Source: Chloroflexota bacterium
Lineage (GTDB): Bacteria; Chloroflexota; Anaerolineae; Anaerolineales; Villigracilaceae
Length of the DNA: 64,000 nucleotides
Assembly: GCA_024434165.1 (NCBI GenBank)
Contig: QMIW01000007.1
Location: 1 to 64,000, forward strand
Reading direction: 5' to 3'
The first letter of the stretch is position 1. Every line of letters starts with the position of its first letter. A model generated the notes under the pieces. It did not search any database and was not told where the DNA came from. It worked only from the letters and a program-made list of their open reading frames with translations. Both the position numbers and the translations under genes were made by a program. This document shows positions 546-12,583 of this stretch, one piece after another.

Positions 546-704
546 ATGTCCGAGAAAGATAAGCACGACACCGAGTCCCCCTCCAAATGGCAGGTTGTGT
601 TCGACAACATCTGGCTGTTGTTTCTGCTTTCCCTGCTCATCAGCGGAATCATTTACAACGCCTGGGGTTTGTACGACCTGTTGAACGTCCCGCCCGCCCC
701 ATAA
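546..704 (+). CDS. Small single-pass membrane protein, probable accessory oxidase subunit (52 aa)
   Basis: A 52-residue protein with a charged, hydrophilic start (MSEKDKHDTE) and one membrane helix at about residues 19-41. GAAGAGGAG lies 6-14 bases before the ATG, and the stop is only 23 bases before the start of oxidase subunit II, so it is surely co-transcribed with it. Short one-helix proteins at the head of ba3-type and related heme-copper operons (such as subunit IIa of Thermus ba3 oxidase) occupy the space where other oxidases have an extra helix. I infer that role from place and shape only; there is no recognisable sequence motif. Confidence 0.75.
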   Translation: MSEKDKHDTESPSKWQVVFDNIWLLFLLSLLISGIIYNAWGLYDLLNVPPAP

Positions 705-1268: not shown

Positions 1269-2996
1269 ATGGCTGCACTCGCTCCCACAACCCCCTGGAT
1301 CAAAGGCGCAAAGGCGGATTACCGCGTCTGCGGCGTGACCACGCTCAAAGTGGACATGCAAACCGAACGCCTCATCATCGCCAACGCGGTGATGGCGGTT
1401 ATCTGCCTGGTGCTTGGCGGCATTGCGGCGCTGCTGATCGCGCTCACCCGCTGGCAGGCGATCCACCTGCTCGACGCCACCTGGTTCTACCGCCTGCTCA
1501 CCCTGCACGGCATTGACATGCTCGTGGCGTGGATCGTGTTCTTTGAAATGGCGGGCTTGCACTTCGGCTCCACCGCCCTGCTCAACGCGCGCCACGCCGC
1601 CCCCGGGCTGGCATGGACCGGCTTCGTCATGATGGCGGTCGGCGGTTTGATGGCAAACTTCGTCGTCCTGTTCGACCCGAAGAGCATCGTCACCTTCACC
1701 GCGTATGTGCCGCTCAAGGCTCATCCGCTGTTCTATCTTAGTTACATCCTCTTCGCCGTCGGCGCGCTGATCACCGTCATCACCTTCTTCATCAACCTCG
1801 TGGTTGCCAAACGCGAAAAACGCTTCGAAGGCTCCCTGCCGCTGGCTGTTTTCGGTTTGCTGACCGCCGCCATCCTGGCGGTCTACACCCTGCTCGAAGG
1901 CGCCGCCGCCATTGTGCCGGCTTTCTTCTGGTCGCTTGGCATCCTGCCCGATTACGACCCCGGCATCTACCGCAACTTCTTCTGGGGCTTTGGTCATCCC
2001 GCCCAGCAGGTCAATCTCGCGGCGATGGTTGCCATCTGGTATATGCTCGCGCAGATGACCGTCGGCATCCGCCCGCTCAACGAAAAGTTCTCGCGTCTCG
2101 CCTTCATCCTTTACCTGTTCTTCATCAACCTCGGTTCGGCACACCACCTGCTCGTTGACCCGGGACTCTCCTTCGCCTGGAAAGCCGTCAACACCTCCTA
2201 CGCCATGTACCTCGCCGTGCTTGGTTCGATGATGCACGCCTTCTCGATCCCCGCCGCCATGGAAGTTGCCCAGCGCGCCAGGGGACATACCAAAGGCTTG
2301 TTCGGCTGGCTGCGCAACGGGCCGTGGAATGAACCGGGCTTCGGTGCTCTGGTCGTGTCCATGATCCTCTTCGGCTGGATCGGCGGCGTCACCGGCGTCA
2401 CCATCGGCACTGAGCAGATCAACATGCTGGCGCACAACACCCTGCGCCTGCCGGGTCACTTCCACGCCACCGTCGTCGGTGGAACGACCACCGCCTTCAT
2501 GGGCTTCACCTACTACGTCATCCCGCTCATCTTCCGCAAGGAACTCAAACTCAAGAAGTGGGCGGTCTGGCAGCCCTATGTGTACGGCATCGGCTCGGCG
2601 CTCGTTTCGCTCGGCATGATCACCAGCGGCTTGCAGGGCGTCTCCCGCCGCAACTGGGATATCACCTTCGCGGGCGTCGTACCCGGCACGGTGGACCTCA
2701 CGCTTGCCATTTTCGGCATCGGCGCGCTCATCGCCGTTACCGGCGGCATCATGTACGTGACCATCGTGCTCGCCTCCATCCTTACCGGTCCGCGCAAGGA
2801 GCCGGAGGGCTTGCTGCTCGTCGGCGGCGCGCACAACCCACTGCTCGAATCCACCCAACTGACCGACGAACAGATGGAACATCCCAGAAACCAGCCCAAA
2901 GGGACGCTGGTGCTGGTCTTTGCCTTCCTCGTCTGGTTTGCCATGTATTACCTCGGCAACTGGTGGCTGCTCGGACGCACCTGGTTCATTCGCTAA
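1269..2996 (+). CDS. Heme-copper oxidoreductase subunit I without the cross-linked Tyr; possible NO reductase
   Basis: Catalytic membrane subunit of 575 residues with about 13 predicted helices. Metal ligands are in order: His80 (TLHGIDM) for the low-spin heme, His243 (GHP), His292-His293 for CuB, and His397/His399 (GHFHA) for the hemes. In O2-reducing A- and B-type enzymes the residue four after the GHP histidine is the redox tyrosine covalently bound to it (HPxxY); here it is Gln247 (HPAQQ). Heme-copper enzymes lacking that tyrosine are generally NO reductases, including the CuA-containing eNOR/sNOR-like groups. I therefore infer an NO reductase or atypical oxidase, with oxidase as the alternative. 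A GGAGGAAC ribosome site precedes the ATG. Confidence 0.85.
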   Translation: MAALAPTTPWIKGAKADYRVCGVTTLKVDMQTERLIIANAVMAVICLVLGGIAALLIALTRWQAIHLLDATWFYRLLTLHGIDMLVAWIVFFEMAGLHFGSTALLNARHAAPGLAWTGFVMMAVGGLMANFVVLFDPKSIVTFTAYVPLKAHPLFYLSYILFAVGALITVITFFINLVVAKREKRFEGSLPLAVFGLLTAAILAVYTLLEGAAAIVPAFFWSLGILPDYDPGIYRNFFWGFGHPAQQVNLAAMVAIWYMLAQMTVGIRPLNEKFSRLAFILYLFFINLGSAHHLLVDPGLSFAWKAVNTSYAMYLAVLGSMMHAFSIPAAMEVAQRARGHTKGLFGWLRNGPWNEPGFGALVVSMILFGWIGGVTGVTIGTEQINMLAHNTLRLPGHFHATVVGGTTTAFMGFTYYVIPLIFRKELKLKKWAVWQPYVYGIGSALVSLGMITSGLQGVSRRNWDITFAGVVPGTVDLTLAIFGIGALIAVTGGIMYVTIVLASILTGPRKEPEGLLLVGGAHNPLLESTQLTDEQMEHPRNQPKGTLVLVFAFLVWFAMYYLGNWWLLGRTWFIR

Positions 2997-3084: not shown

Positions 3085-3750
3085 ATGACGACCTCCTTTC
3101 TCCTCGGTCTGTTCGGCAGTCTCGGTCATTGTGTGGGGATGTGCAGCGCCGTCATCATCCTTTTTGATCGCCAGCCCGTCTTCCAAAACAAACATGCGTG
3201 GATTCTCGCGCACGCCGGGCGCATCACCACGTACTCTTTGCTCGGTTTACTCTTTGGCGCGTTCGGTCAGACCCTCTGGTCGTTCGGAAACCTGCAAGCC
3301 ATTCTCTCCATTCTCTTTGCGCTGATCGCCTTCTATCTCGCCTCCGCTTTCATTGGATTGACCCCCTCGCCCGAACTTTTATTCTCTGGATTGACCCAAC
3401 GCTGGGGAAGAGCCATCCGCAATTTCAAAGCCGCCTCTTTCTGGACCTCATACCTGCTCGGTCTCCTGTGGGGACTCCTACCCTGCGGCTTGGTCCTGAC
3501 CGCGCTCATCACTGCGGTTGTTTCCAAATCCGCCTGGCTCGGCGCATTGAACATGTTCATTTTCGGCGCTGCCACCATCCCCAGCCTGTTCGCCGTCAAA
3601 TGGCTGGCGGCAAAATCCGCCTCCCGCCTCTGGTCGCGCGGACTCGCCTCCCTCGTCCTGATGTTCTTTGGCTTCCAATTCGCCATGCGCGGGTTTGCTT
3701 CGCTGGGCTGGGTGGAGCATTTCATGATCGGCTCGGTGATGTTCTGGTAG
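3085..3750 (+). CDS. SafE/TauE-like six-helix membrane protein, probable copper/oxidase maturation factor
   Basis: A 221-residue integral membrane protein with six predicted helices. It carries the family signature GSLGHCVGMC (11-20), with paired cysteines Cys16 and Cys20, and LLPCG in the second half, seen in the SafE/UreH-type branch related to CcdA. In many genomes this protein lies next to the CcoI copper ATPase in cbb3 oxidase assembly clusters; here it is 44 bases before such an ATPase and 88 after subunit I. Role: probably copper or thiol handling during oxidase assembly. This is inferred from context; exact function in the family is poorly defined. The name sulfite exporter is a database label and not likely its job here. 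Confidence 0.75.
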   Translation: MTTSFLLGLFGSLGHCVGMCSAVIILFDRQPVFQNKHAWILAHAGRITTYSLLGLLFGAFGQTLWSFGNLQAILSILFALIAFYLASAFIGLTPSPELLFSGLTQRWGRAIRNFKAASFWTSYLLGLLWGLLPCGLVLTALITAVVSKSAWLGALNMFIFGAATIPSLFAVKWLAAKSASRLWSRGLASLVLMFFGFQFAMRGFASLGWVEHFMIGSVMFW

Positions 3751-3794: not shown

Positions 3795-6287
3795 ATGCAA
3801 CTAGCCAACTACCAAACTGCAAAACTAACTTCCACCTGCTCCCTGTGCGGGTTGACCACACTCCATCCGCTCACAAACGACGCAGGCGATGTGTTTTGCT
3901 GTCCTTCGTGCAGGGAAGTGGCGGCGCTGCTGGCGGAGAGTCCGCTAGAGGAGGCGAAGCAGGTTGAGGTCAAGGGAGAGGCGAAAAACATCACCCTCAC
4001 CCTCGGCGGCATGTGGTGCTCCTCCTGCGCCTGGCTGGTCAATGAGCAGCTCAAACGGACGCGGGGCGTGGTGAACGCGGAAGTCAGTTTCATCCAGCAG
4101 CAAGCCAACATCACCTTCGACTCCTCGATTACCAATACCCAATCGCTAAAAAAGCGCGTGCGCTCGCTCGGCTATCAAGCCGCGCTGCCAAACGAAAAAC
4201 CGCACGATGAAGAAGAATCTTTCTTCACCCGCCTGCTCATCGGCGGCGTGATGGTTCTGCACGACATGATCGTGGGCGCGGGGATTTACGCCCGTGAGAT
4301 CTTCGGCTGGGCAACGCCCGAATCGCAGCCGCTGGTGGACTTCTTCCAGGTGATGATGATGGTCACCAGCATCCCGGTTTTGATCCTGCTCGGTCTGCCG
4401 ATTCTGCGGGCAGGCTTTGCCTCCCTCCTGCGCGGACAGCCCAACATCCACACACTGATCACCATTGGCACGTTCTCTGCGTTTGGTCTGTCCGTCTATC
4501 ACCTCATCGCCGGTTACGGAGGCTTGTACTTCGACACCGCCACCATGCTCATTTTTTTGGTCTCGGTGGGACGCTGGCTCGAAATGCAGGCTCACAAATC
4601 CAGCAACAAGGCTGTGATGAAACTGCTCGAACAGATTCCGGACTCGGCAGCGGTGGTGACAAGCGAAGGGGATAAGGATGTCAGCGTATCCGACCTCAAA
4701 CCGGGCATGCGCCTCCGGGTTCGACCCGGAGCCCGCTTCCCCGTAGACGGTTTGATCGCCGCCGGGGAAGGCGACGTGGACGAATCGCTCCTGACGGGGG
4801 AACCCAAACCCGTCCCGCGCCGCGCAGGGGACGCGGTCAAAGCGGGGACGATCAACCTCGACGGCAGCTTCGAGGTCATCGCTGCGGCGGTGGGCGAAAC
4901 CACAATGGCGGGTCAAATCGGCAGGCTTTTACACGAAGCCTTGTGGGCACGCTCTCCGCTCGAACGCCTTGTGGACAAACTCTCGGCGTGGATGACACCC
5001 GCCGCGCTTGCGCTGGCAGCGATTGCCTTTTTCATTTGGAATTATGTTTCCGGCGTCGAAACAGGCTTGCTGGTTGCGTTGTCCGTTCTGCTGATTGCCT
5101 GTCCCTGCGCGCTGGGGCTTGCCACGCCGCTTACCCTGTGGCTGTCTTTGGAGCGCGCCGCCGAATCGGGCGCAATTCTGCGAAGCACCGCCGCGCTCGA
5201 ACGACTGGCAAAGGTCGAAAGGATTTTCTTCGATAAAACCGGCACGCTGACGCAGTTGCCGATGAAAGTGCAGAAAATCCATGTGGAGTCAGGGAGCTTG
5301 CTCCCGACATCCGAAGGCTTGCTCCCGACATCCGAAGGCTTGCTCCCGTCATCAGCAAGATCACTGACTCCAGAAGTGTCGCCGGCAAACCGGCTGACTC
5401 CAACAGTGAAATTTCTTCAAATCATCGCCTCCATCGAAAACGAATCGGAACACCCATTGGCGAAGGCGGTTGTGGAGTATGCAAAAGCGCAGGGCATCGA
5501 ACTGCAAAAACCCGAGTCCTTCAAAGCCCTGCCCGCACTTGGTGTAATGGGCAAATTACCCACTTCTCCAATTACCAATTACCCAATTACCGATTCCCAA
5601 ATTGCAATTGGCTCTTTACGTCTTATGTCTGCCGAGGGGTTGGAACTATCCGAGGAAATCGAAAAACAGGCTAAGGCGTGGAAAGAGGCGGGCTTGATCG
5701 TCATCTATGCCGGATGGGATGGGCATGTCGTCGGGGCAGTGGGGCTAGGGGAGACAGTCCGCGCGGAGGCGAAAGAGGTTGTCGCTCGATTGCATTCGCG
5801 CGGACTGAAGCTCGGCGTGCTGACGGGCGATGAAGCCGGTGCGGGCGGGCGCTGGCAAAAGACGCTGGGCATTCCCGTGCAGGCGGCGCTCACGCCCGAT
5901 GAGAAAATGAAGCGGCTGGCGGAAAACGCCGCGATGGTCGGCGACGGGATCAACGATGGTCCCGCGCTTGCCGCTGCGACGGTTGGGCTGGCGATGAATC
6001 ATGGCGCCGATGTGGCGCGCACCGCCGCCGACATTGTGCTGATGCGCGATGATTTGAAAGTCATTCCCTGGCTCGTGGACCTTTCGCGCGAATCCATGAA
6101 GCGCGTGCGCCAAAACCTCGGCTGGGCGGTGGTCTACAACCTGCTCGGCGTGGCGCTGGCGATGGCTGGTTTGTTACAGCCGGTCTTCTCCGCGTTTGCA
6201 ATGGTGGCGAGCAGCGTCTTCGTCACGAGCAACGCAATGAAGATGAATAAGTTTCCGTTATTATACGGTGAGGATGAAAATCTTTGA
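3795..6287 (+). CDS. Copper-type P1B ATPase (CcoI/CopA-like)
   Basis: Heavy-metal pump of 830 residues. N-terminus: a small zinc-ribbon-like region with CSLC (15-18) and CCPSC (35-39), as in CcoI-type pumps, then an HMA domain with WCSSC (74-78). The membrane metal site is CPC (436-438). The actuator LTGEP motif, the phosphorylation motif DKTGT (480-484), SEHPLA in the nucleotide domain and GDGIND (716-721) are all present, so it should be active. CPC with an oxidase neighbour points to Cu(I) export for oxidase metalation. Longer upstream starts overlap the SafE-like gene and add no family sequence, so I chose 3795. Odd: the nucleotide-binding domain contains a 21-bp tandem repeat (5296-5358) and an AATTACC-rich tract (5554-5610). 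Confidence 0.9.
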   Translation: MQLANYQTAKLTSTCSLCGLTTLHPLTNDAGDVFCCPSCREVAALLAESPLEEAKQVEVKGEAKNITLTLGGMWCSSCAWLVNEQLKRTRGVVNAEVSFIQQQANITFDSSITNTQSLKKRVRSLGYQAALPNEKPHDEEESFFTRLLIGGVMVLHDMIVGAGIYAREIFGWATPESQPLVDFFQVMMMVTSIPVLILLGLPILRAGFASLLRGQPNIHTLITIGTFSAFGLSVYHLIAGYGGLYFDTATMLIFLVSVGRWLEMQAHKSSNKAVMKLLEQIPDSAAVVTSEGDKDVSVSDLKPGMRLRVRPGARFPVDGLIAAGEGDVDESLLTGEPKPVPRRAGDAVKAGTINLDGSFEVIAAAVGETTMAGQIGRLLHEALWARSPLERLVDKLSAWMTPAALALAAIAFFIWNYVSGVETGLLVALSVLLIACPCALGLATPLTLWLSLERAAESGAILRSTAALERLAKVERIFFDKTGTLTQLPMKVQKIHVESGSLLPTSEGLLPTSEGLLPSSARSLTPEVSPANRLTPTVKFLQIIASIENESEHPLAKAVVEYAKAQGIELQKPESFKALPALGVMGKLPTSPITNYPITDSQIAIGSLRLMSAEGLELSEEIEKQAKAWKEAGLIVIYAGWDGHVVGAVGLGETVRAEAKEVVARLHSRGLKLGVLTGDEAGAGGRWQKTLGIPVQAALTPDEKMKRLAENAAMVGDGINDGPALAAATVGLAMNHGADVARTAADIVLMRDDLKVIPWLVDLSRESMKRVRQNLGWAVVYNLLGVALAMAGLLQPVFSAFAMVASSVFVTSNAMKMNKFPLLYGEDENL
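5296..5358 (+). repeat. 21-bp tandem repeat inside the P-type ATPase gene
   Basis: Two exact copies (5296-5316 and 5317-5337) of a 21-base unit beginning GCTTGCTCCCGACATCC, and a third diverged copy to 5358. The unit is a multiple of three, so the frame is kept and it adds an LLPTSEG heptapeptide repeat between DKTGT and the SEHPLA motif of the ATPase. The bases just before it (GGGAGCTTGCTCCC) are nearly palindromic. Confidence 0.85.
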
Positions 6288-6456: not shown

Positions 6457-8517
6457 ATGACCCAAAACCCCTACGCACAACGCAAACTTTTACGCACGCT
6501 CGAAAAACTATGGGCGCGCATGGAAGGCGCAGTCAACCGCTTTACCAGATCGGATTTCAACCCGCTCTATCACCTCGGCACGCTGACCATCTTCATGCTC
6601 ATCGTCCTGCTTGCCACGGGTGTGTATCTCACCGTCTTCTACCGCCCGGGGCTGGATGTTGCCTACGCCACCGTCGAAAGAATCGACTCCAACTGGTTCG
6701 GCTCGCTCATGCGCAGCATCCACCGCTACGCCAGCGACGCGATGATCCTGCTCATCCTCCTGCACATCTTCAAGATGCTGTTCAGCGACAAGTTTTGGGG
6801 TCAGCGCTGGCTGGCGTGGACGAGCGGCTGGATCATGCTCGCGGGCGTGTGGCTGACCGGGACGATGGGCTACTGGCTCGTCTGGGATCAGCGCGCGCAG
6901 TGGATGACCGAATACATGATGCAGACCCTGGCGGGCACGTCGGGTCTCACCTATGTCGCGGCGGATATCGAATCGCGCACGTTTTCCAACTTCGTCATCA
7001 TTCTCTTTTTGCACGTCTTTTTGCCGATCATCGGTTTTCTCGGCATTTACCTGCACGGTTTGCGCCTTTCCCGCGCGCGCTGGTGGTCGCCGCGCTGGGT
7101 GAGCGTTCAGGCGCTCATCGGTTTGACGGTTCTATCGCTCATCAAGCCCGTTCAATCCTTTGCGCAGGCAGACCTTTCCACCCTCGTCCAATCCGTGCCG
7201 ATGGATGCGTATTATCTCGGCTTCCTTCCGGTGATTGACCAGTGGGGAAACCTGATTTTCTGGGGACTGGCAATTCTGCTTGGCGGAAGTTTGTTCCTGC
7301 TCCCCTGGCTCGCCTCGGGGCGGGACCTCGGGCCTGCCGCTGTTACCGACCCGGCTTGCACTGGCTGTAACATTTGCTACGCCGAATGTCCGTACGACGC
7401 CATCCGCATGGTGGACCGCGACGACGAGACGGGTTATCGCAAACTCGCCGTCATCAACGCCGCACAATGCACGGGATGCGGCATCTGCGTGGGGGCGTGT
7501 CCCACCGATGCGATTGCATTGAAGGGCGGCTACAGCGGGGAGCAGGTCTTCAATGCGGTGAAGGGCGCGCTGCACCGCGAGAAGAGCGAGGGGAACGCCG
7601 TTACCATCCTCTTCGCAAGCCAGCGTGATGAAGCGCTGGGGAGCCTGCCCGCCCGGTTAACCGTCAGCAAGGATGGTTCTCCAGTTGCAGTATCCGCCTG
7701 GGGTGAGGATGGGGCGGCGCGCGTGGTCACGGCGGTGATTCCTTCGGCGGGCGCGGTCAACATCGAGTGGATCAAGTCGCTTCATCAGGACGGCGCGCGC
7801 GATATCGTCATTCTTTCACAGCCGTACGACGACAGCCTCAACCGCGAAGATGCACATTGGATCTTGAATCGTTTGCACCTGCGCCCCGCGCTGGTGAAGC
7901 CCGGTCTGCACTGGCTCGAGGTCACGCCGGGCGATGCGAAGAGCGTGGAAGGGTTTTTGAACGACCTGCACAAGCCGGAACTGCAAAATGGAAAGCGCCC
8001 GCCTGCTCTGCCTCCTGTGAAGGAGAGAAACAAATTCATCCCGTCGCTGGTGAGCGGAGCGGCTGGAACCCTGCTGCTGTTGGGGCTGTTCGCGTTGGCG
8101 CTGCCGCTGGATATTTCGGCGGGTATGCGGGCGGCGGAGCAAAGCGCCCTGCGGGTGGCGGTGGATGCGAAAGGCAAGGTCGAAGCGGCGGCGATTCCCG
8201 AAGGCGTGACCCTGCCCGAAGGGGCGGACCCCGTGCAGATCTTCGGCGGCGTGCATTTCCCCGTCAGCGTGCGCGTGGTGATGGACGGCGAAACGATCCT
8301 GAATGAAACCTATAAGCCTTCGGGCATCAGCGGCAACGGGCGCATCTCGGCGCTGGAATTTTTGGAAATCGCGCCGGGCGTCCATCAGGTGGAAGTATGG
8401 ATCAAGGACGATGCGAACGATTATCGGCTGTCGTATTCGGGCGAGGTGAATTTTGAAAAGGGCAGGGCGTTGATCCTCGCGTACGACGAGAAGCAGGATG
8501 CGTTTGTGCTGCGGTAA
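6457..8517 (+). CDS. Cytochrome b fused to a 2[4Fe-4S] ferredoxin domain
   Basis: A 686-residue membrane redox protein. Residues 1-230 are a cytochrome b/b6-type four-helix bundle with two heme pairs spaced by 14: His89/His103 and His186/His200. After further membrane helices (about 255-285), residues 298-352 hold two complete ferredoxin motifs, Cys301/304/307/311 and Cys338/341/344/348. Residues 380-475 form an alpha/beta region vaguely like MvhD but without its cysteines; then one helix (about 525-545) and a C-terminal soluble domain. The C-terminal cytochrome b half with the PEWY quinone site is absent. Likely passes electrons between a ferredoxin-level donor and hemes or quinone. AAGGA lies four bases before the ATG; a TTG start at 6427 is less good. 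It follows the copper ATPase, so it may feed the oxidoreductase upstream. Confidence 0.85.
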   Translation: MTQNPYAQRKLLRTLEKLWARMEGAVNRFTRSDFNPLYHLGTLTIFMLIVLLATGVYLTVFYRPGLDVAYATVERIDSNWFGSLMRSIHRYASDAMILLILLHIFKMLFSDKFWGQRWLAWTSGWIMLAGVWLTGTMGYWLVWDQRAQWMTEYMMQTLAGTSGLTYVAADIESRTFSNFVIILFLHVFLPIIGFLGIYLHGLRLSRARWWSPRWVSVQALIGLTVLSLIKPVQSFAQADLSTLVQSVPMDAYYLGFLPVIDQWGNLIFWGLAILLGGSLFLLPWLASGRDLGPAAVTDPACTGCNICYAECPYDAIRMVDRDDETGYRKLAVINAAQCTGCGICVGACPTDAIALKGGYSGEQVFNAVKGALHREKSEGNAVTILFASQRDEALGSLPARLTVSKDGSPVAVSAWGEDGAARVVTAVIPSAGAVNIEWIKSLHQDGARDIVILSQPYDDSLNREDAHWILNRLHLRPALVKPGLHWLEVTPGDAKSVEGFLNDLHKPELQNGKRPPALPPVKERNKFIPSLVSGAAGTLLLLGLFALALPLDISAGMRAAEQSALRVAVDAKGKVEAAAIPEGVTLPEGADPVQIFGGVHFPVSVRVVMDGETILNETYKPSGISGNGRISALEFLEIAPGVHQVEVWIKDDANDYRLSYSGEVNFEKGRALILAYDEKQDAFVLR

Positions 8518-8519
8518 CA

Positions 8520-8578
8520 GACGATAGACCATGGACCATGGACGAACAGTCCCTCTTGATGGTCTATGGTCTATCGTC
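8520..8578. terminator. Long hairpin between convergent genes, bidirectional terminator
   Basis: A 19-base arm (8520-8538) pairs with 8560-8578 with one mismatch, with a 21-base loop. A T-run (TCTTTTTT, 8582-8588) follows on the + strand. It sits between the + strand cytochrome b fusion (ends 8517) and the - strand small membrane protein, whose last codons it overlaps, and probably stops both transcripts. Confidence 0.75.
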
Positions 8579-9082
8579 CATCGTCTTTTTTGGTTTTCGA
8601 TTGTACGCCGCTGCAAACCAGATCAAGATCACCAGCAACACTCCAAACGGAATCCACGCCAGCAATGCGCGCTGGACGAGCACATTGCGGAAGGGGGCTT
8701 CGGCGGCGGGATTGGCGGTATACCATTTTCCGTCATATTCAGACGAACCCTTCACCAATCCATCGTAAAAGACATAGCCGGTATACGGGTAATAATGGAG
8801 CTGGTCGAAGGGAACGTCTTTCGGCTTGTCGCCGGTATATTCCACGTACACGCGCACGATCTGGTAGCCCTGTCCGGGGTCGGCGGGAGCGGGGATTTCA
8901 CCCTGCGCGAAATCGGCAAAGGCGAAGAAATCCTGCGTAAGCGCGGGGTTGGTGACGTTGATCTCGCCCGTGATGCCGGGTCCCTTCACGGTGATGTAGG
9001 AAAAGCTGCCCTTGGCAAAGACAACCATCGTTGGGATGAGCAGAACCAAAGCAAGTGTGAAAGCAAACCGTTTTCTATTCAT
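8564..9082 (-). CDS. Unknown protein with signal peptide and C-terminal membrane helix
   Basis: A 172-residue protein I do not recognise. It has a signal sequence (about 1-24, ending near VVFAKG), an extracytoplasmic domain rich in aromatic residues and Gly/Pro (25-135), and one membrane helix (about 143-163) before a short basic tail. This is the layout of a membrane-anchored outer-face protein. The ATG at 9082 is preceded by GGAG at a good distance; a TTG two codons upstream is less likely. It converges on the redox gene block and is divergent from the beta-helix gene at 9247; any functional link is a guess. Confidence 0.75.
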   Translation of the reverse strand: MNRKRFAFTLALVLLIPTMVVFAKGSFSYITVKGPGITGEINVTNPALTQDFFAFADFAQGEIPAPADPGQGYQIVRVYVEYTGDKPKDVPFDQLHYYPYTGYVFYDGLVKGSSEYDGKWYTANPAAEAPFRNVLVQRALLAWIPFGVLLVILIWFAAAYNRKPKKTMDDRP

Positions 9083-9212
9083 GTTCAATCTCCGTTGTCA
9101 GTTCCCCGGATTGTAATGGAGAGTTCGGAGAAAGACTGTGACGGAAGTCCGCTTTGGGCGCCGCCCGGCAAACTGCCGTATTAATACACTGGTTATCCTC
9201 CCTCGAAACGGG

Positions 9213-9218
9213 TAGAAT
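9213..9218 (+). promoter_or_regulatory. Candidate -10 box of the first beta-helix gene
   Basis: GGTAGAAT has a TAGAAT hexamer 28 bases before the ATG at 9247. The same GGTAGAAT/GGTATAAT form precedes 47079 and 57039. No good -35 box is visible. Confidence 0.4.
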
Positions 9219-9246
9219 CTGCGGGCAGATTTATGGATGCCGCCTT

Positions 9247-10710
9247 ATGATGAAAAAATACAGGATTCCAGTTTTCTTTTTGCTGCTGGGGGTTATGAAT
9301 CTATTCTGCACCACCTCGGTCCCGCCAGCCGCCACGCCAACGCCCATGCCGACTCCAATCGAATTGCCAAACGGCGTCTATTACGTCAGCCCGGACGGAG
9401 ATGACGCCAACACTGGCACACAAAGCAAACCCTGGCGGACGATTCAGAAGGCGGCGGATAGCGTGGTGGGAGGAGGGACGGTCTTCGTAAAAGAAGGGAA
9501 TTATGCTGAACGGGTCGCCGTCATCCACTCGGGCACGGCGGACCTGCCGCTCCAGTTCGAGGCGGAGGGGAGGGTCGTCATCCAGGGATTTACAATCGCC
9601 GCCGATTACGTGTCCATTCGCGGGTTTGAAATCACCGATACGCCCGACCATGGGCGGGATGGCTGGGGAATCTGGGCGCGAAGCAGTTATTGCGTCCTGG
9701 AAAACAACTATGTGCATGATGCCACGCGGGGCGGCATCCTGTTGTTTGTCCTTCCGGGGGAGGAGACGCAGGTCCACGATTGTGTGGTGAAAAATAACCG
9801 GCTCTACCGAAATGCGTTCGCTGGAATCGAAGTTCGCGGGCGCAGCCACCTCATAGAGGGAAATGAGGTTTGGGGTACCATCCAGATTCACCCCAAATGG
9901 TCGAACCCGCCGAACTGGGCGGACGCTGACGGCATACGCTTCCACGGGTCGGGGCACATATTCCGAAGGAATTACATCCATGACATTCACTACGGCATCC
10001 CTGAAAACCCCAGACCCCATATTGACTGTTTCCAGACCTTCACCGACGGCAGTTTTCATGAAGCGGCAAGCAATGTCGTCTTTGAACAAAATCTCTGCGA
10101 GAACATGCAGGCGCAATCCCCGCTGGAAGCCGGCAAAGCCTTCATGATTCGAGATGCGGCAAATTTGATCATCCGCAATAACATTTTGCGGTCCTACCGG
10201 GTGCTGCAAGCCATTGACAGCGACAACCTGCAGATCATCAATAACACGTTTACCAACCGGCTCGACCTGTCCGTGAGAAACAGCCCGGCCATCATCACCT
10301 TGACCAACACGCCCAACAGCCTGATCAAGAACAACATCTTTTTCGACCCGCTGCTGCACGTCATTTATTTTGCAGACAACCTTTCCAGGACCGGCGTGGA
10401 TATTGGGAATAACAATGTCTTTCGCAGCGATGGACGGGCGGCGCCTGGGAAACCGTATCCGAACGATTTGTGGAATGTAGATCCCATGTTCCTGGATTCT
10501 GAACGGGGGGATTTTCACCTCAAACCCGGCTCGCCGCTCATTGACACGGGCGCTTCGCTTGCCATTGTTCCGACAGATTACGACGACGATCCCCGCCCTC
10601 AAGGGAGCGGCTACGACATCGGATCAGATGAATGGATGTCTGACAATTCATTCAACTCGGACAATTTCCTCGCCGTGTTCTTCTCTTTTCTGCCTTCCGC
10701 CCGGCAATAA
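9247..10710 (+). CDS. Secreted right-handed beta-helix protein, paralogue 1
   Basis: A 487-residue exported protein. It has a hydrophobic signal (about 4-19) ending at a cysteine (NLFCTTS), so it may be a lipoprotein although the lipobox is poor; then a short Thr/Pro linker and a parallel beta-helix of the kind found in polysaccharide lyases and epimerases. It begins with YYVSPDGDD...GTQSKPWRTIQ, the start typical of pectate-lyase-like secreted proteins, and shows repeated NN-I/V coils. A conserved block (WADADGIRFHGSG, then PHIDCFQTF) is shared with the next gene, about two thirds identical by eye. The position next to a polysaccharide cluster with an AlgD-type dehydrogenase suggests action on that polymer. 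The catalytic class (lyase, epimerase or hydrolase) cannot be told. Confidence 0.8.
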   Translation: MMKKYRIPVFFLLLGVMNLFCTTSVPPAATPTPMPTPIELPNGVYYVSPDGDDANTGTQSKPWRTIQKAADSVVGGGTVFVKEGNYAERVAVIHSGTADLPLQFEAEGRVVIQGFTIAADYVSIRGFEITDTPDHGRDGWGIWARSSYCVLENNYVHDATRGGILLFVLPGEETQVHDCVVKNNRLYRNAFAGIEVRGRSHLIEGNEVWGTIQIHPKWSNPPNWADADGIRFHGSGHIFRRNYIHDIHYGIPENPRPHIDCFQTFTDGSFHEAASNVVFEQNLCENMQAQSPLEAGKAFMIRDAANLIIRNNILRSYRVLQAIDSDNLQIINNTFTNRLDLSVRNSPAIITLTNTPNSLIKNNIFFDPLLHVIYFADNLSRTGVDIGNNNVFRSDGRAAPGKPYPNDLWNVDPMFLDSERGDFHLKPGSPLIDTGASLAIVPTDYDDDPRPQGSGYDIGSDEWMSDNSFNSDNFLAVFFSFLPSARQ

Positions 10711-10969: not shown

Positions 10970-12583
10970 ATGAAATATCAAAAAATGTACCAGCGTGCCG
11001 GTTTGGTTTTGACTGGCATGCTTCTGTTGTGGACGACGATTGCGCAAACGTCAACGGTGAAGGCGCTGTATGCGTACGCCGATCAACTGACAGAGACTTT
11101 AACGGCGGCGCCCACAGATACAGTCACCGAGACCGCCACGCCGGAACCCTCTGTAACGCCGACAATCGAAACCATCACCAGCACACCGGAGCCTTCCGCC
11201 ACCCCCACCTTATCTCCAACCCCTGTTGACACACAGGTAACAGATACGCCGGTCCCAACGGATGTGGATGCGGCGCAACGTTCCGCCGTTGAAGCGGCGG
11301 TGGACGCTCCCGGCGTCTTTTATGTATCTCCCAATGGGAATAATGCAGGGACGGGTACGCAGACCGACCCCTGGCGCACCATCCAATATGCGGCAAATGT
11401 GGTGGTGCCGGGCTCCACGGTGATTGTTCTGGAAGGCGTGTACCCCGAGCGCGTTATGATTAACCGGTCTGGAGTGTCGGGTGAGCGAATTGTATTCACG
11501 GCGCAGGGGGAGGTCGTCACCCAGGGCTTTACGATAAACGCGAGCTTCATCACCATTCGCGGATTTAGCGTTACAAACACTCCCAATGATTCCAGAAACG
11601 GATGGGGGATCTGGATCAGAGGAAAAAACTGCATCATAACGGACAACTATATTTATAATGCGACGCGGGGCGGTATTCTCCTGTATGTATCCCCAGGAAA
11701 AGAAAAAGCCACCCGTAATTGTACGGTAAGAGATAATCGCTTGTACCGGAACGGATTCGTGGGAATCGAGATTCGCGGTCGTAACCACCGGGTGGAGAAC
11801 AACGAAATCTGGGGTACCATTCAGCGCCATCCCAAGTGGACAAATCCCCCGAGCTGGGCGGATGCCGACGGTATCCGTTTCCACGGTTCAGGGCATAAAA
11901 TCCGCGGGAACTACATCCATGACATTGTGTACGGCATCCCCGAAAACCCCAACCCGCACATTGACTGTTTCCAGACCTTTTCCGACGGTTCCTATCACGA
12001 GGCGGCGAGGAATGTCGTCATCGAACGAAATCTGTGCGAGAACATGCAGGCACAGGCTCCCATGGAGGTTGGGAAGGCGTTCATGATCGAGAACGCCAAT
12101 GATTTGATCATACGGAATAATATCCTGCGGGCATACCGGGTCCTGCAAGCCATCAACAGCAACAACCTGCAGATCGTCAATAATACGTTTACGAACAAGC
12201 TCGGCATGTCCACTGCAAACAGCCCTGTCATGATCACGCTGAGGAACACCCCAAACAGTCTGATTCGAAACAACATATTCTACGACCCTTTGAATCAGGT
12301 AATCCACTTTGTGGATGGCGTCTCCCAGCAGGGCATCACGATTGGGCGCAATAATATCTATCGAAGCGATGGCAGGACCGTCCGGGGGACCAAATATCCA
12401 GGAGACCTGTGGAATGTGAATCCGCTGTTCGTAAACCCGGCGGCGGGCGACTTCCACCTGCAGGCAGGGTCGCCTCTCATCAATATGGGCGCACTGCTTT
12501 CGATTGTCACGACGGATTATGACGGGGTGGCCCGCCCGCAGGGAAGCAGTCACGATATTGGCGCGTACGAAAGAGCGCCGTGA
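10970..12583 (+). CDS. Secreted right-handed beta-helix protein, paralogue 2
   Basis: A 537-residue tandem duplicate of the gene at 9247. The signal peptide (about 1-37) is followed by a Thr/Pro-rich spacer (about 42-100), as in many cell-surface proteins of Gram-positive-like envelopes, and then the same beta-helix from FYVSPNGNN onward. The blocks WADADGIRFHGSG, YGIPENP and HIDCFQTFSDGS are kept, so both copies are probably active on similar polymers. AAGGAGCG is six bases before the ATG. Its last 34 bases overlap the end of the convergent deacetylase gene (12550-13776), so no terminator can lie between them. Anchoring differs between the copies: a possible lipid anchor in the first, a long spacer here. 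Confidence 0.85.
   Translation: MKYQKMYQRAGLVLTGMLLLWTTIAQTSTVKALYAYADQLTETLTAAPTDTVTETATPEPSVTPTIETITSTPEPSATPTLSPTPVDTQVTDTPVPTDVDAAQRSAVEAAVDAPGVFYVSPNGNNAGTGTQTDPWRTIQYAANVVVPGSTVIVLEGVYPERVMINRSGVSGERIVFTAQGEVVTQGFTINASFITIRGFSVTNTPNDSRNGWGIWIRGKNCIITDNYIYNATRGGILLYVSPGKEKATRNCTVRDNRLYRNGFVGIEIRGRNHRVENNEIWGTIQRHPKWTNPPSWADADGIRFHGSGHKIRGNYIHDIVYGIPENPNPHIDCFQTFSDGSYHEAARNVVIERNLCENMQAQAPMEVGKAFMIENANDLIIRNNILRAYRVLQAINSNNLQIVNNTFTNKLGMSTANSPVMITLRNTPNSLIRNNIFYDPLNQVIHFVDGVSQQGITIGRNNIYRSDGRTVRGTKYPGDLWNVNPLFVNPAAGDFHLQAGSPLINMGALLSIVTTDYDGVARPQGSSHDIGAYERAP

Follow-up and report, generated by a model that had tools for sequence, protein, structure and literature searches.

The gene at positions 1269 to 2996 of the window, the 64,000-nucleotide stretch of contig QMIW01000007.1 (Chloroflexota assembly GCA_024434165.1) that was analysed here, was predicted with high confidence to encode the catalytic subunit of a nitric oxide reductase of the eNOR type, which would act with a CuA-bearing subunit II and probably with a 52-residue protein. 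The enzyme class has already been described and the gene is a further eNOR; it adds a well-supported enzyme of the Chloroflexota type to the known class. The eNOR family was reportedly treated by Hemp and Gennis in 2008 and by Murali et al. in 2024, and PMC8756737 is the account of Schwartz et al. 2022. Membership was assigned from the published residue rule, the subunit make-up and a tree in which no other NOR class was represented. The characterised eNOR comes from Rhodothermus marinus, and no Rhodothermus record was among the 80 loci listed from the named-genome collection. The features are listed in Table 1.

Table 1. Features of the window and related genes of the host genome.
Feature	Position	Strand	Basis
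Small single-helix protein, 52 aa, not named in the initial annotation	546-704	+	ORF read; similar ORFs at other loci
Subunit II, CuA cupredoxin	728-1258 (start 722 or 728)	+	CuA ligands, E16, PDB match
Predicted eNOR subunit I, 575 aa	1269-2996	+	Translation, Pfam, alignment, tree, AlphaFold2 model
Gln247 codon, aligned with the cross-linked Tyr of ba3	2007-2009	+	Translation, ba3 alignment
DsbD_2 membrane protein, cytochrome/copper maturation type	3085-3750	+	PF13386, 134 bits
Copper-type P1B ATPase with HMA domain	3795-6287	+	TIGR01511, 469 bits (cut-off 397)
eNOR-linked b6-like diheme cytochrome b; also carries two [4Fe-4S] motifs and other domains	6457-8517	+	
174-aa convergent protein, near relatives only	8564-9088	-	Blast match at 14 of 85 eNOR loci, window included
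Host NirS with extra N-terminal CxxCH region	L167 3001-5034, contig C101		
Host NirK with cupredoxin and CxxCH	L168 2533-4314, contig C148		

Active-site residues of the catalytic subunit

The reading frame of subunit I comprised 575 codons without an internal stop. Its product matched the Pfam COX1 family at 209 bits, which clearly identified it as a heme-copper subunit I; the oxidase equivalogs of NCBIfam matched it only far under their cut-offs, and the 19 PDB sequences that matched it at an E value of 0.001 were variants of the ba3 oxidase together with 7deg. All six histidines that the initial annotation had named as heme and CuB ligands (His80, His243, His292, His293, His397 and His399) were present in the translation. 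The replacement of the HPxxY tyrosine by Gln247, which had also been claimed, was confirmed both by alignment, in which the glutamine, within GHPAQQVN, paired with the tyrosine of HPIVY in the Thermus ba3 oxidase (GHPIVYFW), and by the glutamine found throughout the family. We take the paired tyrosine to be Y237 in the native numbering of ba3. A 545-residue open frame on the minus strand (1245-2882) overlapped the gene.

Glutamine at the alignment site of this tyrosine is the residue by which eNOR subunit I is defined and set apart from the other NORs in PMC8756737, where Table A4 gives Gln for eNOR, Asn for sNOR and Glu for cNOR and qNOR. The window protein shared with sNOR, cNOR and qNOR the loss of the cross-linked tyrosine but carried neither Asn nor Glu in its place; the HPxxY tyrosine, the hallmark of the B-type O2 reductases, was likewise absent, and the heme and CuB histidines were kept, as in eNOR. 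Of the earlier proposal of an eNOR- or sNOR-like enzyme or a new variant, the eNOR part stood, supported by the glutamine, the CuA subunit II, the relation to the B family, the clade of Gln-bearing sequences and the denitrification genes of the host; the sNOR part, for which Asn would be expected, did not, and nothing was found for a new variant.

Subunit II and a small upstream reading frame

Neighbouring genes were compared by blast at 85 eNOR loci, window included, using open frames of at least 60 residues. The CuA subunit II that had been reported next to the gene was confirmed: its CuA ligands H123, C158, C162, H166 and M169 (numbered from the start at 728) were each present in 82 of 82 aligned rows, and it matched ba3 subunit II (PDB 1ehk_B) with an E value of 4e-12. 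Three of the 85 loci were without a subunit II match, and their contigs start inside or just ahead of subunit I. Residue E16, ahead of the first helix, was found in all 82 rows and presumably occupies the place of the K-channel glutamate (E15) of ba3. The composition of two subunits, with a CuA-type cupredoxin as subunit II, was that of eNOR.

PMC8756737 reports eNOR from Anaerolineales and other Chloroflexi, with subunit II encoded upstream and with misannotation as an oxidase, and PMC11388526 describes eNOR as biochemically characterised and related to the B family. The window enzyme resembled the published ones in the glutamine at the tyrosine site, in the cupredoxin subunit II just upstream and in the relation to the B family. 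Its relatives also resembled them in their labels, and the expectation that such a gene would be misannotated as a cytochrome oxidase was borne out by the plasmid relatives, which are labelled 'cbb3-type' or 'b(o/a)3-type cytochrome-c oxidase subunit 1'. Because eNOR genes stand under cytochrome oxidase names, the capacity to convert NO to N2O looks smaller than it is.

The small reading frame, of 52 codons, encoded one hydrophobic helix, and its product had no Pfam match over cut-off. In a list of frames from 21 loci, pre-filtered for hydrophobic stretches, similar ones were identified by eye directly ahead of subunit II at every locus but L118 (20 of 21). They occurred in Chloroflexota, Pseudomonadota, Gemmatimonadota, Kiritimatiellota, Thermomicrobium and Thermus. 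A blast search with the copy from Defluviimonas gave matches at 53 of the 85 loci, itself included; the window was not matched, its 52-residue copy being under the 60-residue frame limit of that comparison. The protein is probably a small subunit of the enzyme.

Conservation of the glutamine

Across 396 genomes from the class of the host, subunit I was matched at 52-100% identity at 39 places, the window among them, which belonged to 37 genomes. Two shorter fragments in these genomes stand outside this count, and the next matches among those listed were at 36% identity or less. Gln stood at position 247 in all 34 of the 39 upper-group places at which the motif was read, window included, and Tyr in all eight read from the lower group, which was B-type, as were the nearest Tyr-bearing relatives of subunit I. 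Among 60 plasmid records, 12 matched at 46-50%, one short Thermus fragment at 37% and the others at 33% or less; the five upper-group rows that were read all had Gln.

The class rows, the plasmid rows and 80 loci from the named-genome collection were combined into a family set of 119 rows. Q246, Q247 and N249 were each present in 119 of 119 rows, a count that includes loci collected with one search pattern containing Q246 and some duplicates of genomes from the class search; all 23 comparison rows had Tyr at position 247. Gln at 247 is a trait of the family and not a chance substitution. The further family-specific polar residues Y282, N308, Y311 and H323 were also found in every row, and Y282 and Y311 were missing from nearly all comparison rows. 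The heme and CuB histidines were kept across the family, except for gaps in one to three rows and a lysine at 399 in three Thermus rows.

The nearest relatives in the named-genome collection were Anaerolineales and Chloroflexi MAGs, at 91% identity, which makes the host probably a member of the Anaerolineales. A protein from an Ardenticatenaceae MAG, of a different strain from the Ardenticatena maritima in which eNOR and NirK share one operon (PMC4653789), was 69% identical to subunit I.

The three rows with lysine at 399 came from plasmids of Thermus thermophilus (L051, L052 and L053) and had GHFK for the GHFH of the other 116 rows. The histidine of GHFH is presumably the low-spin heme ligand. 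A low-spin heme with His/Lys ligation, or an open one, would be unusual; a literature term search on lysine as a low-spin heme ligand found no paper.

Phylogeny and structure model

The tree was built from 50 of 142 aligned rows, comprising 27 with Gln and 23 with Tyr; the latter included B-type relatives, some named and some not, as well as the caa3-type subunit I of the host, which served as outgroup. The 27 Gln rows formed one clade with support of 99/99, recovered in 100% of 200 bootstrap trees. The tree comparison proposed in the initial annotation placed the Gln rows together and apart from the 23 Tyr rows, in a tree that held no sNOR, gNOR, nNOR or bNOR reference. This composition of the tree leaves some room for a different B-related kind of NOR (bNOR, gNOR or nNOR) or for an unnamed sister class. 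We consider such an assignment extremely unlikely, since in PMC8756737 Gln is the residue that sets eNOR apart, Asn and Glu mark the sNOR and cNOR/qNOR enzymes, and eNOR is reported from Anaerolineales and other Chloroflexi.

Two branches of the tree were very long, those of the caa3-type outgroup and of L165, from a plasmid of Azospirillum brasilense. The placement of L165 as sister of the Gln rows was distrusted on account of its very long branch and the Tyr in its 247 column. It is a very divergent COX1-like protein, in which HNLHY, GYFH and YH replace the usual ligand motifs.

The AlphaFold2 model of subunit I had a pLDDT of 82.8 and a pTM of 0.86. It superposed on the Thermus thermophilus ba3 structure 1ehk with a Z score of 34.5 (rmsd 2.4, 472 residues aligned, 24% identity) and on the R. 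sphaeroides structure 3omi with a Z score of 35.3 (rmsd 2.4, 465 aligned, 14% identity). The 50 fold matches shown were subunits I of A-type, B-type and bo3-type oxidases with Z scores of 33-35, and no NOR chain was among them. Since these values were tied between the oxidase types, the fold gives no choice of class.

In its fold, heme and CuB ligands and CuA subunit the enzyme resembled the B-type ba3 oxidase. It differed in the GHPAQQVN motif, in the identity of 36% or less of the lower group among the matches listed in the class search, in the invariant Y282, N308 and Y311 of its family, and in a histidine (H323) at what we take to be the place of ba3 T312.

The likeness to the B family and the CuA subunit would also suit a B-type oxidase that reduces O2 without the cross-linked tyrosine at this site and uses Y282 (helix VII), Y311 (helix VIII) or no tyrosine instead, and the invariance of these two residues across the Gln family is in keeping with such an enzyme. 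We judge this very unlikely. The Gln clade was separate from the 23 Tyr rows, and the window protein had Ile at the position of the C-type tyrosine, in helix VII six residues ahead of HH. Published eNOR activity, reported secondhand in PMC11388526, also argues against an O2 reductase.

Denitrification genes in the host genome

The host genome was 98% complete with 3% contamination. NarG (1559 bits), NirK (324 bits) and NirS (425 bits) were all found over cut-off, on contigs other than that of the window, which starts at a contig end. No NosZ match in the genome exceeded the cut-off, the best reaching 54.8 bits against the required 625. The NirS carried two CxxCH motifs ahead of the d1 domain as judged by eye, one of which was matched by Pfam, and the NirK carried a cupredoxin and a CxxCH ahead of its NirK part. 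This resembles the Chloroflexi repertoire of C1-C2-NirS and cupredoxin-C1-NirK described in PMC8756737. Judged by its genes, the host may be a partial denitrifier in which the pathway ends at nitrous oxide.

A COX1 search of the host genome found, besides the window gene, one caa3-type subunit I, which carried HPAVY, and two short partial matches; by name alone the host might therefore be scored as having no NO reductase. That the host already has a caa3-type subunit with the tyrosine weighs against an O2-reducing role of the window enzyme, as does the association of eNOR with nitrite reductases across the class. A NirS scoring more than 400 bits, or a NirK over its cut-off, was found in 25 of the 37 eNOR genomes and in 45 of the 359 others of the class sample (odds ratio 14.5, Fisher p 1e-12, kinship ignored), and 10 of the 37 had neither NirS (E value 1e-60) nor NirK over cut-off. 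In several members of the class, for example G052 and G033, the eNOR gene lay a few kb from NirS or NirK on the same contig, and on a Thermus plasmid some 4 kb separated it from an annotated nitrite reductase gene and some 26 kb from nar genes.

On host contig C19 (L036 2600-3415), two adjacent ORFs of 138 and 132 residues each weakly matched part of COX1. About 0.7 kb beyond them was an ORF that by eye looked like a Crp/Fnr-type regulator.

Proposed reaction and proton path

We infer that the substrate is NO. In the working that we propose, a soluble donor (cytochrome c or a cupredoxin) would reduce CuA of subunit II, and electrons would pass from CuA to the low-spin heme (H80 and H399) and on to the high-spin heme (H397) and CuB (H243, H292 and H293), where two NO would be coupled (2 NO + 2 H+ + 2 e- -> N2O + H2O). 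Gln247 would stand in for the tyrosine that serves the oxidases as redox and proton donor in O2 splitting; coupling of NO would have no need of a donor of that kind. Protons would probably come from the cytoplasm through a modified K channel. Candidate channel residues, set by comparison with ba3, were Y258, S320 and H323 (119 of 119 rows) and subunit II E16, with His at the place of T312. Y258, S320 and E16 presumably correspond to Y248, S309 and E15 of ba3, and together with H323 they may line a K-type channel.

The enzyme could also be an eNOR that removes NO without conserving energy and without a respiratory role. This is possible at rather low probability. It would be in keeping with the absence of a NosZ over cut-off in the host, and a proton channel or pump in eNOR is described as a proposal in the literature available to us. 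Conservation of E16, Y258, S320 and H323 at places that would fit a K-type channel, and the presence of NarG, NirK and NirS in the host genome, argue instead for a respiratory eNOR.

Genes downstream of the catalytic subunit

The DsbD_2 gene had a blast match at 36 of the 85 eNOR loci and the P1B ATPase gene at 35, window included in both counts; a few of the ATPase matches were weak or distant. The pairing of a DsbD_2 protein with a copper P-type ATPase recalls the maturation genes of cbb3 oxidases, and the ATPase probably supplies CuB.

The cytochrome b part of the gene that follows superposed on the fold of bc1 cytochrome b with a Z score of 21.5 (rmsd 3.0, 251 residues aligned). Blast matches to this cytochrome b/Fe-S gene were present at 69 of the 85 loci, in several phyla and with the window included; in the 61 long open frames in which the motifs were checked, four His and eight Cys were each kept in 60 or 61 rows. 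Among the best 82 matches in the class genomes, 28 were strong (at least 350 bits) and 54 weaker. Of the strong matches, 22 were no more than 10 kb away from a Gln-type subunit I, and the remaining six were on other contigs of genomes with such a gene; nine of the 37 eNOR genomes had no strong match among these 82. The weaker matches lay within 10 kb of a place of the lower group (36% identity or less) in 46 cases, near a Gln-type gene in one (G301) and near neither in seven, the lower-group places being B-type by identity, with Tyr read in eight places of that group.

The gene was accordingly rejected as a mark of eNOR alone. Because the weaker paralogues lie near B-type places, the cytochrome b/Fe-S protein looks like a partner of the whole enzyme group and not like a mark of NO reduction; the same paralogues are a point in favour of an O2-reducing B-type enzyme in the window, which we nevertheless disfavour on the evidence above.

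For the preferred eNOR assignment, the conserved partner genes offer a lead on the supply of electrons or copper. We tentatively suggest that eNOR and its B-type cousins have a dedicated partner in the b6-like diheme cytochrome b with two [4Fe-4S] clusters, which, with a single-helix small subunit, might link them to the quinone (or ferredoxin) pool in a bc-like, energy-conserving NO module, or which might instead reduce copper for assembly of the CuB site, the role that the copper reductase CcoG has in cbb3. No account of a cytochrome b partner was found in the available text of the eNOR literature (PMC8756737, PMC11388526, PMC9270275, PMC10734462 and PMC4013037), which is no proof of novelty.

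The convergent 174-residue protein had no Pfam match; by eye, it had hydrophobic stretches at its N- and C-terminus. Beyond it, positions 9154-10710 and 10970-12583 encoded similar proteins in tandem, the first of which matched right-handed beta-helix families and the second of which was alike by eye.
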